Assembly (NCBI GenBank): GCA_016195805.1
Contig: JACPYT010000010.1
Coordinates: 1 to 64,000, forward strand
Source of the DNA: Hydrogenophilales bacterium
GTDB lineage: Bacteria > Pseudomonadota > Gammaproteobacteria > Burkholderiales > Thiobacillaceae
Length of the DNA: 64,000 nucleotides
Reading direction: 5' to 3'
Positions 59,404 through 63,364 of the stretch are shown here, one piece after another. Below the pieces are notes generated by a model, which did not search any database, had not been told where the DNA came from, and saw nothing but the letters and a program-made list of their open reading frames with translations. Every line of letters starts with the position of its first letter. Position 1 is the first letter of the stretch. Position numbers and translations under genes: made by a program.

Positions 59404-59949
59404 TTACAACGCCAGCGAGAGCGCGGCGATGGTGCCGCCGAGCAGCGCGCCCACCAGCACATCGCTTACATAGTGCAGGCCCAGCACCAGTCGCGACAGC
59501 GCGACCAGTGCGGTGAACGGCCATACCAGCCAGCCCAGCCCCGGGTAATAGGCGGTGGCGACCGCGCTGAATACCACTGCGTGCAGGGTATGGCCGGAAG
59601 GAAAGCTGAAACGGTCGAGCGGTGCGGTCAGGCAACAGATCGACGGGCAGGCCTGGTAGGGGCGCGGGCGCTCGGTGGCGCCTTTCAGCCATTTGTAGGC
59701 GAGGGTGCCGACGAGGCCTGCCGCGATCATGTGCAGCACGGCCGGCAGCGCTGCGCCGCCCTGCCAGGCGATCAGCACCAGCATCAAGGCATACCAGAAC
59801 ACGCCGTCGCCGAGGCGGCTGGCAAGCCGCAGCAGGCCGACCTCCCAGTCGGGCAGGCGCACGCCGTTGAGGCGTTCCAGCCAGGCATGTTCGCGTGCGG
59901 CCAGTCGATCGAGGCCGTGATGGGCAACCAGACTCAAACGGCGCTGCAT
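59404..59949 (-). CDS. PAP2-family membrane phosphatase
   Basis: A 181-residue integral membrane phosphatase with five or six helices and the three catalytic motifs: KGATERPRPY, FPSGHTLHA and SRLVLGLHYVSDV. It probably acts on lipid phosphates such as undecaprenyl or phosphatidyl phosphates. The SD sequence AGGAG (59955-59959) sits between the start codon and the first base of a MITE-like element at 59962, so its upstream region consists of that element. Confidence 0.9.
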   Translation of the reverse strand: MQRRLSLVAHHGLDRLAAREHAWLERLNGVRLPDWEVGLLRLASRLGDGVFWYALMLVLIAWQGGAALPAVLHMIAAGLVGTLAYKWLKGATERPRPYQACPSICCLTAPLDRFSFPSGHTLHAVVFSAVATAYYPGLGWLVWPFTALVALSRLVLGLHYVSDVLVGALLGGTIAALSLAL

Positions 59950-59961
59950 GGTGAGCTCCTG

Positions 59962-60230
59962 TAGGGCGTGTTAACACTAATTTCGCGTCCGCGTTGTCGA
60001 GAGAAAGCGATGGATGCAAGGCGCGTCGCGCAGGCAAGGGCCATCCCTTGCCAAGCGGCGCAACGCCGCAGGCACGCTTTCTCTCGACAACCCAAAGGGA
60101 CGGGCCAATTCGAGCGCATCCCTTTGTCGCGTGCCGCTTGCAGTGAATGACACTGCGGCGCGTCACGCTTCGCGGGCTGCATCCCGAATCGGCCTCGTCG
60201 CGGGCGTGAAATTAGTGTTAACACGCCCTA
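59962..60230. mobile_element. MITE-like element copy 1 (269 bp)
   Basis: Perfect 23-bp terminal inverted repeats begin TAGGGCGTGTTAACACTAAT at 59962 and end with its complement at 60230. TA stands at both outer edges, consistent with TA target duplication as in IS630/Tc1-mariner-type elements. Inside is a second palindrome, GTTGTCGAGAGAAAGCG (59993-60009) and its complement (60075-60091), and GGCAAGGG-CCAT-CCCTTGCC. There is no transposase. It is homologous to the element at 61526, in inverted orientation. Confidence 0.82.
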
Positions 60231-61472
60231 ACGTGTCGAAACGGCGGAAGACCAGTCCAGCTGGGGATCGGCCGCAGGCTCGGGATGGGCAAGCCGCAGC
60301 AGCACCCGCTCGAAGCTGTCGATGATGGCGTCCCACGACAACTGGGCGGCACGCGCGGCAGCGGCAGTGCCCAGGCGGCGTTGCCGCGCAGTGTCGGAGG
60401 CCAGCGACAGCGCCTGCGCGACGAACGTGGCCTCATCCTCGGGTGGTGCCTTGAGACCGTTTTCGCCGTGCCGGATGATCTCTTCGGCGGCCGCGCAGTC
60501 GTAGGCCACCACTGCCAGGCCGGAGGCCATCGCCTCGATCGTCACGTTGCCCCAGGTCTCGGTCAGGCTGGGAAACAGGAACACGTCTCCGGAGGCGTAA
60601 TGGGCGGCCAGGGCCTCGCCGATCTGGGTACCGCAGAATATCGCGTCCGGGCGCCTGGCTTGCCAGCTGGCGCGTTCCGGGCCGTCGCCTACCAGCACCA
60701 GGCGGGTGGCGGGATGCGCCTCGCGCATGGCATCGAAGGCGCGGAATACCAGCGCCAGGTTTTTTTCTGCCGCCAGGCGCCCCACATACAGCGCCGCAGT
60801 TTCGTTTTCGCCCACTCCCCAGTGCGTGCGCAGGGCTTGGTCGCGGCGGCCGGGATGGAACAGCTGGGTGTCCACGCCACGTCCGATGATCTCGATGTTC
60901 TCGTAGCCATGCGCCAGCAGTTCGCGGCGGATGCCCTCGGTCGGTACCAGCGTGACGGCAGCCTTGTTATGGAATTTGCGCAGATAGGCGACGATGGCCC
61001 GGCGCAGCAGGCCAAAACCGTAGTGGCTGCTGTAGCTGTGGAAATTGGTGTGGAAGTCGCTCGCCACCGGCAGGCGCAGTTTGTTGGCAGCCGCCAGTGC
61101 CGACCAGCCAAGCGGCCCTTCGGTGGCGATCTGTACCACGTCCGGGCGCTGCCGGGTCCATAACCGGGTCAGCGCGGCTTTCGCCGGCAGGCCCATCTTC
61201 AGGCCTTCATAACGCGGAAGTGCGATGCCGCGCTGCAGGTGTTCGCTGAGGGTGGCGGTGGGCTGCGGCTGGTCGTCGGAATGCTGGCGCGGACGGATCA
61301 GCTGCACCTGGTGATTGCGCACCTGCAGGCCGTCGACCAGTCGGCCCAGCGTCATGGCCACGCCGTTGACTTCGGGCGGATAGGTTTCGGTCACCACCGC
61401 GATGCGCAGCTGCGGGCGCATCGACGGCAAGGTCTGGCAGGTGAATTCGGCTGCATCCATGGGGCGCAGCAT
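60228..61472 (-). CDS. Glycosyltransferase family 1 (GT4-type)
   Basis: A 414-residue GT-B glycosyltransferase: RIAVVTETYPPEVNGVAMTL near the start, donor-site segments (ALYVGRLAAEKNLALVF; GDVFLFPSLTETWGNVTIEAMASGLAVVAYD). It resembles mannosyl/glucuronosyl transferases of glycolipid synthesis. The start is uncertain: ATG 61472, 61460 or 61421; the conserved domain begins near 61421. Its TAG stop is formed by TA plus the first G of the MITE-like copy 1, and another copy ends 53 bp upstream of its start, so the gene is bracketed by inverted repeats. Confidence 0.85.
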   Translation of the reverse strand: MLRPMDAAEFTCQTLPSMRPQLRIAVVTETYPPEVNGVAMTLGRLVDGLQVRNHQVQLIRPRQHSDDQPQPTATLSEHLQRGIALPRYEGLKMGLPAKAALTRLWTRQRPDVVQIATEGPLGWSALAAANKLRLPVASDFHTNFHSYSSHYGFGLLRRAIVAYLRKFHNKAAVTLVPTEGIRRELLAHGYENIEIIGRGVDTQLFHPGRRDQALRTHWGVGENETAALYVGRLAAEKNLALVFRAFDAMREAHPATRLVLVGDGPERASWQARRPDAIFCGTQIGEALAAHYASGDVFLFPSLTETWGNVTIEAMASGLAVVAYDCAAAEEIIRHGENGLKAPPEDEATFVAQALSLASDTARQRRLGTAAAARAAQLSWDAIIDSFERVLLRLAHPEPAADPQLDWSSAVSTR

Positions 61473-61525
61473 GCCCCCGCCGTGCGACAAACAGATGACG
61501 CCGAGGTGATGGTTTGGTGAAGGCG

Positions 61526-61846
61526 TAGGGCCTGCTAACGCTAATTTCACGCCTGCAACGGGTCCGCTTCGGATGCAGGCCGCGAAGCGGGATGCGCCGC
61601 AGTGCGGGCACTGCAAGCGGCTCGCGAAAACGCAGTTTCAGTGCAGGCTAACGTGAGCGAAGCGAACGTTATGCCGGAGCTACAAAGGCATGCGCCCGAA
61701 GCGAACCCGGCCCTTCGGGTTGCCGCGAGAAAGTGCGTCTGCGGCGTTGCGCCGCTTGGCAAGGGATGCCCCTTGCCAAGCGGCGCGCCTGCATCCATCG
61801 CTTTCTCGCGGCAACGCAGGTGCGAAATTAGCGTTAGCAGGCCCTA
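61526..61846. mobile_element. MITE-like element copy 2 (321 bp)
   Basis: Perfect 23-bp terminal inverted repeats begin TAGGGCCTGCTAACGCTAAT at 61526 and end with its complement at 61846, with TA at both edges. It shares ends and inner blocks with copy 1, inverted: the GGGATGC...GCCGCAGTG...CACTGCAAGCGGC block and the GGCAAGGG hairpin. An inner palindrome, GTTGCCGCGAGAAAG (61719) / CTTTCTCGCGGCAAC (61801), matches the layout of copy 1. It has no coding content. Confidence 0.82.
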
Positions 61847-63364
61847 GGCGGCGAGCGCCAGCGCGTCCTGCGCGATGTCGCGCAGCAGCAGGATATCGCG
61901 ATAGGCACCCGGTTCGAAGCCTATCCGCGTGCCGCCGCGATTGTCGTAAATCAGGTCGTGGAAGAAGGCGCCGACATCGGGCGTATTCCACACCTTCACC
62001 AATTGTTCCAGCAGGTGCGGATAGGCTTCCAGTCCCTGGCCGTTATCGTTGTCCTGGGAAACCGGATGGTCCGTGAGGTTGACGTTGAAATACCGGCGGC
62101 ATTCGGCGCTGGCGGCGGCATAGCCTGCAGTATCGCCTTCACGATGCAGCAAATCGAGCAGCAGCAGCCACGGCACCGGCGACTCGGTCGGCGCTTCGCG
62201 CAGGTGCTCCTGCAGCAAATGGATGGCCAGGTCGCCATGGCCAAAGGCCATGAACACCTCGGCCTGGTCGAGGATGTCTTCCTTGACCTCGGTGGCGTTG
62301 CTTGGCTCAGGCGGCGCGATTTCCGGCATGCGTTGGGAGACTGGCGACGGCTCGGCCGGCAAGTCGGAGCTGAGTTCGGACAGCGTTTTCTCCGGCATCT
62401 CCGTCTGTGTCCAGAGCGAGTTGGCGCCCAGCGGGGTCCGGGGCGTCCGGTTGCGGCGCAGCAGCCAGGCGGCTAGCGCGATCAGGGCGGCCATTCCTGC
62501 CGTCGCCAGCAGATAGAGGGGCCATTGCGCGGATTGCGGGGCCGCAGGAGGGGGGGTGATCGCCGTCGCGGCCGCATGACGGGCAGCCTCGAGTTCGTCA
62601 TTGCGTTTTTTCAGCGCGATCAGTTGGGCTTCCAGATTCGCCAGTTTGCGGCCCAGTGCCGTGTTTTCGTCCGACAGTTCGGTGGGCGTCAGGCCTTCGG
62701 GGCGCGGCAGAGTCAGGTCAGGCAGCCGGGTGTCGCGGCGCAACGCAACGGGCGCGCCGCTCAGCGGAGAAACGGCGTCTTTTCCGGACAGAACCAGGCG
62801 CGGCAGGGTTTCCTTCGGGGCCGGATGTGCGCGGGGCGCGGCCCGCTGCGACGCGGCAACAGTCGACGGACGCGCCTTGGATGCAGGGGCACGATGGGTA
62901 TGGAGGCGCCGGGAGTGCAGCGGAACGGGGCGTCGTGCCGGGGCTGCGACGGGCGCAGGCTTGCTTTGCACAGCGGGGGTGTCTTCATCGAGGGCGGATG
63001 TTGCCGCCGTGGGCGGGTCGAGCAACACGACATACTCGCGCTGCAAGCGCACTTCACAGTCCGAAATCAGGACAAACTGTACGACCGGGTCATTGACCGA
63101 TGCAGACGTGCGGATATGCAGGCGTGTCTGTTCTCCCGTTCGCTCGATGCTCAGCTTCGCGCGCAGCGGCGGCGCGATGCTGTCCGCGCTGGGGGCGATG
63201 CTGAAGCAATCCGCTGTCGTATCGGCCGTCGCATCGAGCAGGGTCACCGTCACGCGCAGGGGCTGCCCCAGCAGCGAGCGCACGTTGATATCGCCCATGC
63301 CCAAGGCCGCGGCGGAACCGGCTTGGCACAGAGTGAGAAGAAGGCAAGCGGTTTTGAGGTTCAC
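61844..63364 (-). CDS. FimV-like envelope protein
   Basis: A 506-residue protein: signal peptide ending SAAA-LGMGD, then the FimV N-terminal domain (INVRSLLGQPLRVTVTLLDA, binding-type beta domain), a long Ala/Pro/Arg-rich linker, a short coiled coil (LGRKLANLEAQLIALKKRNDELEA), one membrane helix (about 280-300) and a C-terminal helical region of FimV/TPR type. FimV organises polar machinery and type IV pili in relatives. The start codon is GTG. Its TAG stop is completed by the first G of MITE-like copy 2. Confidence 0.75.
   Translation of the reverse strand: MNLKTACLLLTLCQAGSAAALGMGDINVRSLLGQPLRVTVTLLDATADTTADCFSIAPSADSIAPPLRAKLSIERTGEQTRLHIRTSASVNDPVVQFVLISDCEVRLQREYVVLLDPPTAATSALDEDTPAVQSKPAPVAAPARRPVPLHSRRLHTHRAPASKARPSTVAASQRAAPRAHPAPKETLPRLVLSGKDAVSPLSGAPVALRRDTRLPDLTLPRPEGLTPTELSDENTALGRKLANLEAQLIALKKRNDELEAARHAAATAITPPPAAPQSAQWPLYLLATAGMAALIALAAWLLRRNRTPRTPLGANSLWTQTEMPEKTLSELSSDLPAEPSPVSQRMPEIAPPEPSNATEVKEDILDQAEVFMAFGHGDLAIHLLQEHLREAPTESPVPWLLLLDLLHREGDTAGYAAASAECRRYFNVNLTDHPVSQDNDNGQGLEAYPHLLEQLVKVWNTPDVGAFFHDLIYDNRGGTRIGFEPGAYRDILLLRDIAQDALALAA

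Follow-up and report, generated by a model that had tools for sequence, protein, structure and literature searches.

REP and REPIN hairpins are inverted and paired, carry conserved unpaired bases and are mobilised by RAYT transposases, and ERIC is an enterobacterial palindrome of about 127 bp. We describe here two non-coding elements that lie on either side of a glycosyltransferase gene in a stretch of 64,000 nucleotides from a Hydrogenophilales bacterium (GenBank assembly GCA_016195805.1, contig JACPYT010000010.1, positions 1 to 64,000; hereafter the window). Their family differs from REP and REPIN in having long terminal repeats, TA duplication and IS5-type ends, and it differs from ERIC in length. 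Very probably, the two are independent insertions of a type II miniature inverted-repeat transposable element (MITE) that would be moved in trans by a transposase of IS5 type and is built around a conserved palindromic fold module.

Type II MITEs such as Correia, ERIC, Nezha, QMITE2 and Chunjie are likewise short and non-coding, with terminal repeats, target duplication, stem-loop potential and a mostly intergenic location, and the sequence that they share with insertion sequences (ISs) is confined to their ends, as in the window family (PMC10969869, accessible text). In that text the families are described by host and stem-loops are mentioned, with no shared core fold; the Polaromonas JS666 genome paper is cited there for a MITE. 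MITEPsy1 of Pseudomonas syringae resembles the window family in its insertion at CTAG/YTAA and its IS5-family-like ends, and its transposition has been observed; with only 100 nt it is set apart from the window family by length (PMC3189936). The Xenophilus-type ISs described below, the presumed source of the transposase, have the same outer ends and TA flanks as the window family, but the window element has no transposase remnant. What separates the window family from the MITEs of the review text is a bulged core fold of about 220 nt, occurrence in three classes of Pseudomonadota and the use of several kinds of end. No description of the element was found in the open literature, including searches with end and core strings, most subscription journals lying outside that scope.

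The two elements of the window

The original prediction of two elements of 269 and 321 bp in opposite orientation was borne out, at the positions given below.

59962-60230, + strand: element 1, a 269-bp MITE in the canonical orientation, with the central box CAACCCAAAGGG on the + strand
59962-59984, + strand: left terminal inverted repeat of element 1, 0 mismatches, beginning with the target TA
59993-60091, + strand: left arm of element 1, with lower stem 59993-60022/60065-60091 and apical stem 60033-60040/60045-60052
60092-60098, + strand: central mini-hairpin CC-AAA-GG of element 1, at the arm junction within ACCCAAAGGGA
60099-60199, + strand: right arm of element 1, 60099-60145 pairing with 60151-60199
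60208-60230, - strand: right terminal inverted repeat of element 1, its TAG being the glycosyltransferase stop at 60228-60230
61526-61846, - strand: element 2, a 321-bp inverted copy of the same family as element 1, with an extra arm segment
61526-61548, + strand: terminal inverted repeat of element 2, 0 mismatches
61628-61682 (ends approximate), - strand: extra segment of element 2, read from alignment A1 and the sequence
61824-61846, - strand: terminal inverted repeat of element 2, its TAG being the stop of the FimV-like gene at 61844-61846

The two elements are homologous and mutually inverted, with corresponding blocks (pairs I1-I4) that are 83-91% identical. As had been proposed, the 23-nt ends match perfectly inside each copy and differ in sequence between both copies; taken further inward, the terminal repeats are complementary at 94% over 32 nt in element 1 and at 91% over 34 nt in element 2. 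Compared with dinucleotide shuffles, the whole elements fold with z-scores of -15.1 (element 1) and -14.9 (element 2). Both have the features of MITEs, being short, gene-less and perfect in their 23-nt ends, and inspection of the open reading frames found no transposase frame, the internal ones being short. R2, a covariance model of the core alone with the termini excluded, matches element 1 at 59985-60206 with 227 bits and element 2 at 61550-61823 with 144 bits. Element 2 is the longer because of an additional segment of about 55 nt within one arm. This segment holds an imperfect palindrome, GGCTAACGTGAGCGAAGCGAACGTTATGCC, and an insert in an arm is also present in another long copy, L079 (306 bp).

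The conserved fold

When copies are oriented by the central box, they share an outer stem of terminal repeats, a left arm, the CC/GG mini-hairpin and a right arm. The conserved body of about 220 nt thus consists of two bulged arms and the central mini-hairpin, both base pairs of which are invariant across 26 aligned sequences. In the consensus the two arms follow a single design in opposite orientation: both contain an internal loop CAAGGC..AACGC as well as an apical stem TGG..CCA. Alignment A1, in which the copies were unoriented, was poor and was repaired by orienting them via the central box and a hidden Markov model (HMM), and 43 aligned copies were cut to 23 at below 90% identity. Alignment A3 was made with plain MAFFT and its structure was derived from A3 itself.

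Covariation is strong. In 26 cores aligned with plain MAFFT, 75 of the 86 core pairs show change on both sides, paired cells make up 86.2%, a share that falls to 64.3% in shuffles and to 36-43% when partners are slid, and the covariation score is 0.534 against 0.167 in shuffles. The pattern extends to 73 further copies, none of them identical to a row used in model building and all at most 88% alike over 150 nt: of the 71 pairs that form whichever strand is folded, 64 have two or more Watson-Crick types and 52 have three or more, in a set that was found with R2 and aligned to R2 and hence leans towards the R2 structure. In this alignment, from which columns with more than 50% gaps were removed, some unpaired bases are also conserved, for example A35, A79, A80 and T144.

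Copies, target and stop codons

The view that the elements are MITE-like members of a dispersed family holds. With up to three mismatches, the 23-nt end pattern matches 17 times in the source genome against 0 for a reversed-pattern control, and R2 finds 9 full core copies there. At up to two mismatches, the end occurs in 44 of 120 genomes (own included) and the control in none. The exact 23-nt end was found in 82 stretches from Beta-, Gamma- and Zetaproteobacteria within a genome contig collection that by its description covers 84,980 species; one record in the genus of the window bears the label Thiobacillus denitrificans (its contig is that of relative G045).

A set of 90 copies was reduced to 74 distinct ones by removing repeats, and to 69 independent sites. 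Of the 74, 54 measure 268-272 bp and 73 have an interior that scores at least 60 bits against the profile; L042 (262 bp, the same as L114), whose interior matches weakly, was excluded from the structure sets. The target is YTAR in 56 of the 74 copies and TA stands on both ends in 55, in agreement with the outer TA dinucleotides of the original prediction, although the copies in these counts were found by an end pattern that itself starts with TA.

At both window sites the element supplies the TAG stop of the upstream gene. Among the 69 independent insertions, the first TAG of the element ends a predicted gene of at least 60 aa in 28 (22 when only genes of 150 aa or more are counted; a first-pass count gave 31/74), and 4 genes enter the element in one of the two remaining frames. 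As background, stops make up a share of 0.169 and 0.106 of the YTAR sites, counted over stop and non-coding sites of the same loci with genes called by a simple purpose-written codon model; the binomial P values are 3e-6 and 1e-6. Since the TA-G of the element rebuilds TAG, the end of the host protein is unchanged. Preference at insertion and survival afterwards are indistinguishable in these counts, and selection against other sites may explain the stop excess.

The glycosyltransferase locus in relatives

The genes of the locus are as follows.

59404-59949, - strand: PAP2-family gene, downstream of element 1
60228-61484, - strand: GT4-type glycosyltransferase gene between the elements, ancestral at the locus and not cargo
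61844-63364, - strand: gene with a FimV N-terminal domain, its stop codon supplied by element 2

A close homologue of the glycosyltransferase (80-93% identity) is present in 30 of 55 other genomes of the genus, and the loci of 29 of these 30 genomes were compared. The FimV-like gene lies upstream in 27 loci and the PAP2 gene downstream in 26, which are all the loci where the neighbour was found, and the direction is always the same. From this constant order and direction it follows that the glycosyltransferase gene is ancestral at the site. Copies of the window kind are missing from the element-2 site in all 29 loci and from the element-1 site in 27, the other two loci ending before it, and the sole end-like match among them (L138) lies beyond PAP2 at the stretch edge. 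The outcome that would have refuted the original prediction, a lack of other copies in the genome and relatives or conservation of both copies at one site in distant genera, was not seen.

One relative is instructive. In L148 (relative G032) the gap between the FimV-like and glycosyltransferase genes, which is the element-2 site, holds a 155-bp one-armed member at 1281-1435. It was found by the HMM and the core model and is invisible to a scan for the window-type end pattern. Its ends, TAGTGTCGTGAATCAGAAATA, match each other at 22 of 24 positions, and its single arm likewise bears the motif CAAGGCGCG..GAGCAACGCC (23.7 bits with R2, E 1e-4). The TAG of this member ends the FimV-like gene (..ALPLAA stop) at the same codon as element 2 does (..ALALAA stop), so two different members entered one stop codon. 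The FimV stop in the other relatives inspected is GCC-TGA. The glycosyltransferase gene ends with CGT-TAG in relative L153 and, at the edge of element 1, with CGT-TAG in the window.

Insertion sequences with the same ends

A candidate for the mobiliser is an 830-bp IS from Xenophilus (L101 7166-7995), which has the identical 23-nt end and whose frames match DUF4096 and DDE_Tnp_1 (IS4/IS5 type). We assign it to the IS427 group of the IS5 family. The original prediction had suggested an IS630/Tc1-like partner, but the transposase of this transposon with the exact end belongs to the IS5 family. ISs of 816-828 bp with TA flanks and approximately the first 16-20 end bases in common occur in Polaromonas, Variovorax, P. 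aeruginosa, Caballeronia and one relative of the order. According to PMC3281130, the IS427-group members of Paracoccus (IS1248 and others) measure 832-865 bp, have 2-bp repeats (one has 4) and contain two overlapping frames, with one exception; the size of 816-830 bp, the 2-bp duplication and the split frame fit the group as tabulated there. The left end of the Xenophilus IS extends into a small hairpin, GCAGTTTTCCAAGAAACTGC, and its transposase is split in two frames around an A-run.

When six ISs were compared with the MITE profile, every positive-score match lay within 68 bases of the IS ends, and no internal IS sequence was retained in the element. An origin as a deletion derivative of an IS5/IS427-group IS was therefore rejected on the same comparison. 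Agreement between ends amounts to 17-20 of 24 positions in the ISs and to a median of 22 of 24 in the MITEs, a figure that favours good ends because the MITEs were partly found by them. Matches to IS DNA occur in 10 of 150 genomes of the order (own included), several being end-sized or short, and PF13340 transposases in 5 of 20 carrier genomes and 0 in the own genome.

Same core, different ends

Partial matches in the own genome proved to be full elements bearing other ends: 3 of the 9 full core copies carry two other kinds of end. Copies there with the same core and quite different terminal repeats are C13:153112-153327, C5:118653-118872 and C17:113689-113910. The R2 core is present in 54 of 56 genomes of the genus (own included), in some weakly; G010, G041 and G054 have 13-20 weak matches each, with best E-values from 3e-8 to 6e-12, which may come from one-armed members or from more distant ones. 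Across Pseudomonadota it was found in 55 of 200 sampled genomes and 33 of 110 genera (own included). Around 75 places (109,253 bases) all 150 matches were the seeded places on both strands, and the specificity of R2 rests on this lack of matches outside them and on 145 match-free genomes of the 200, no decoy model having been used.

The ends of 144 elements fell into 13 automatic groups, 131 of them in one single-linkage group. Automatic boundaries are wrong for some copies, including L389, L396, L401 and L403, so several automatic pairs with different ends and the same core are artefacts. After trimming by hand, at least seven clearly different kinds remain, for example TAGTGTCCCGTCTGGCTAATTC, AGAGCTCATTTCATAAATATTC and TAGAGCGGCGATCAATAGATGTG. 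Against the main group, the ends of L280 and L292 reach 75-80%, those of L261, L274, L283 and L319 reach 70%, and those of L263, L275, L276, L323, L175 and L176/L177 stay at 50-65%, the 65% line for different ends being our own uncalibrated choice. The seven kinds are six groups and the main one; L395 (60%) and the L148 end (unscored) would add to them. Element length stays mostly near 269. The best single case of similar cores with different ends is the pair L252/L282 from one genome, with cores 87% and ends about 60% alike; for relative L282 no match was found in E. coli genomes.

Mechanism and alternatives

In the mechanism that we propose, a trans-acting transposase, most likely of the IS5 family (IS427-like), would recognise the terminal repeats and insert the element at YTAR with duplication of TA. 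Where the target is the Y-TAR of a stop, the G of the element itself restores TAG and the protein end is kept. The body is a palindromic module of about 220 nt and not a shrunken transposase gene, with the terminal repeats closing an outer stem and two inverted, similarly built arms with conserved bulged internal loops set around the CC/GG mini-hairpin, and this module is common to a superfamily in Pseudomonadota with several kinds of end. The fold, as an extruded cruciform or a single-strand hairpin, would pair both ends into one duplex and may be needed for movement. A superfamily of hitchhiking MITEs is our best reading, and we infer the need for the fold. More tentatively, and as somewhat less likely than not, we suggest a pan-proteobacterial gene-less superfamily defined by its DNA fold, in which a core of one or two bulged arms, extruded or recognised in folded form, could pair the ends for different IS5-type transposases and at least seven kinds of end might have arisen via transposase switching.

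Bacterial MITEs are usually viewed as shrunken ISs defined by their ends, whereas here a folded middle is common to elements with different ends in Beta-, Gamma- and Zetaproteobacteria. Does a folded DNA core aid a gene-less element in using foreign transposases? This question can be tested, and the conserved DNA core common to different-ended elements is the part worth following. The work also names a common kind of intergenic repeat and illustrates a neat route of insertion into stop codons, as in two relatives where different members occupy one stop codon of a single gene.

Several results count against the mechanism. The base following TA is C, not R, at both window sites, which leaves no clean YTAR. 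Neither the Xenophilus transposase fragment nor PF13340 matched anything in the own genome, in a search that covered neither PF01609 alone nor transposases of IS630 type, and the fragment finds a distant match in 3 of 56 genus genomes. Ends near the PF13340 transposases of five carriers, compared with 14 chosen MITE ends, gave no clear match, with one near match at 2 mismatches. In structures fitted to a single strand, G-T exceeds A-C on the folded strand (108:71 forward, 119:71 reverse). For five end classes assigned by hand within the genus (39 of 47 copies of the genus set), the median identity of cores is 0.85-0.90 inside a class and 0.55-0.74 across classes (maximum across, 0.76), and this contrast means that ends and cores mostly travel together there. 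Finally, correction of palindromes by template switching could also yield paired changes, chiefly in the terminal stem.

This last point leads to the alternative that the fold is unselected, template switching between arms during replication keeping the palindromes perfect in a passively inherited family. We consider it improbable, although it would account for the symmetry between strands and for the well-matched ends within copies, and although the terminal stem has 8 double against 15 single changes at 93-99.9% identity. In the arms of the same close copies there are 54 single changes and 1 double, as for decaying dead copies, and at 80-86% identity there are 127 single and 95 double changes, with 22 doubles expected. 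This pattern fits decay of dead copies by single changes, together with paired changes in lineages that are still moving. The conserved unpaired bases are also left unexplained by arm correction.

A structured non-coding RNA or RNA regulator that is mobile by chance would likewise have a very stable conserved fold with covariation, and frequent placement at stop codons would suit it. An RNA acting from one strand is expected to tolerate G-U above A-C. On pairs that form whichever strand is folded, however, the covariation is alike on both strands and G-T to A-C counts are 69:66 (23 sequences, arms), 99:138 (55 sequences, arms) and 144:155 (73 sequences); copy by copy (n=55), G-T is in excess in 12, A-C in 30, and the two are equal in 13. 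Because the common pairs lack the G-T excess of the single-strand fits, we read that excess as fitting bias. The orientation of elements relative to the preceding gene is near even (16:12), and together with the mismatches this points to a cause at the DNA level or on both strands. Rfam gave no gathering-score family at the window locus, with weak matches only at relaxed E-values, and among 20 further stretches, searched with E allowed up to 0.1, only one cobalamin riboswitch, at the edge of a copy, attained its gathering score. The fold looks like a property of the DNA and not of a one-strand RNA, and we regard the RNA explanation as quite unlikely.

Retention of the element as a terminator of transcription, or as a hairpin that stabilises the mRNA of the upstream gene, is very unlikely: formation of a stop codon in 22-28 of 69 insertions would agree with such a role, but the window copies are not conserved in place among relatives, and the near-even orientation and strand-symmetric mismatches speak against it. 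The proposal that the pair forms a composite unit of about 1.9 kb or an inversion switch for the glycosyltransferase gene, to which the inverted arrangement and the 83-91% identical blocks lent some appeal, can hardly be upheld, as the FimV-glycosyltransferase-PAP2 order and orientation are unchanged in relatives (27 FimV, 26 PAP2) from which these copies are absent, elements 1 and 2 differ from each other at many bases and carry different end variants, and a scan of seven genes, namely the glycosyltransferase and six of its neighbours, found no recombinase match.

Other copies

Blast gave no phage match and one short plasmid match, which led to an Azotobacter copy with other ends. Matches of other subfamilies lie on named plasmids or chromids of Azotobacter, Halomonas, P. 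aeruginosa, Pseudoalteromonas, Catenovulum and Vibrio, and none of these matches overlaps a listed gene. In L281, a cobalamin riboswitch (Rfam RF00174) at 238-400 extends to the border of a core copy and shares about 25 bases with the predicted end of that copy. The own genome also contains a 95-bp derivative that keeps both ends (L172 3346-3440, C16:86345-86439), solo ends at C2:30430-30452 and C16:170561-170583, and a 392-bp copy (L169 3022-3413, C2:60521-60912) with about 120 bp extra near one end, outside the core match.

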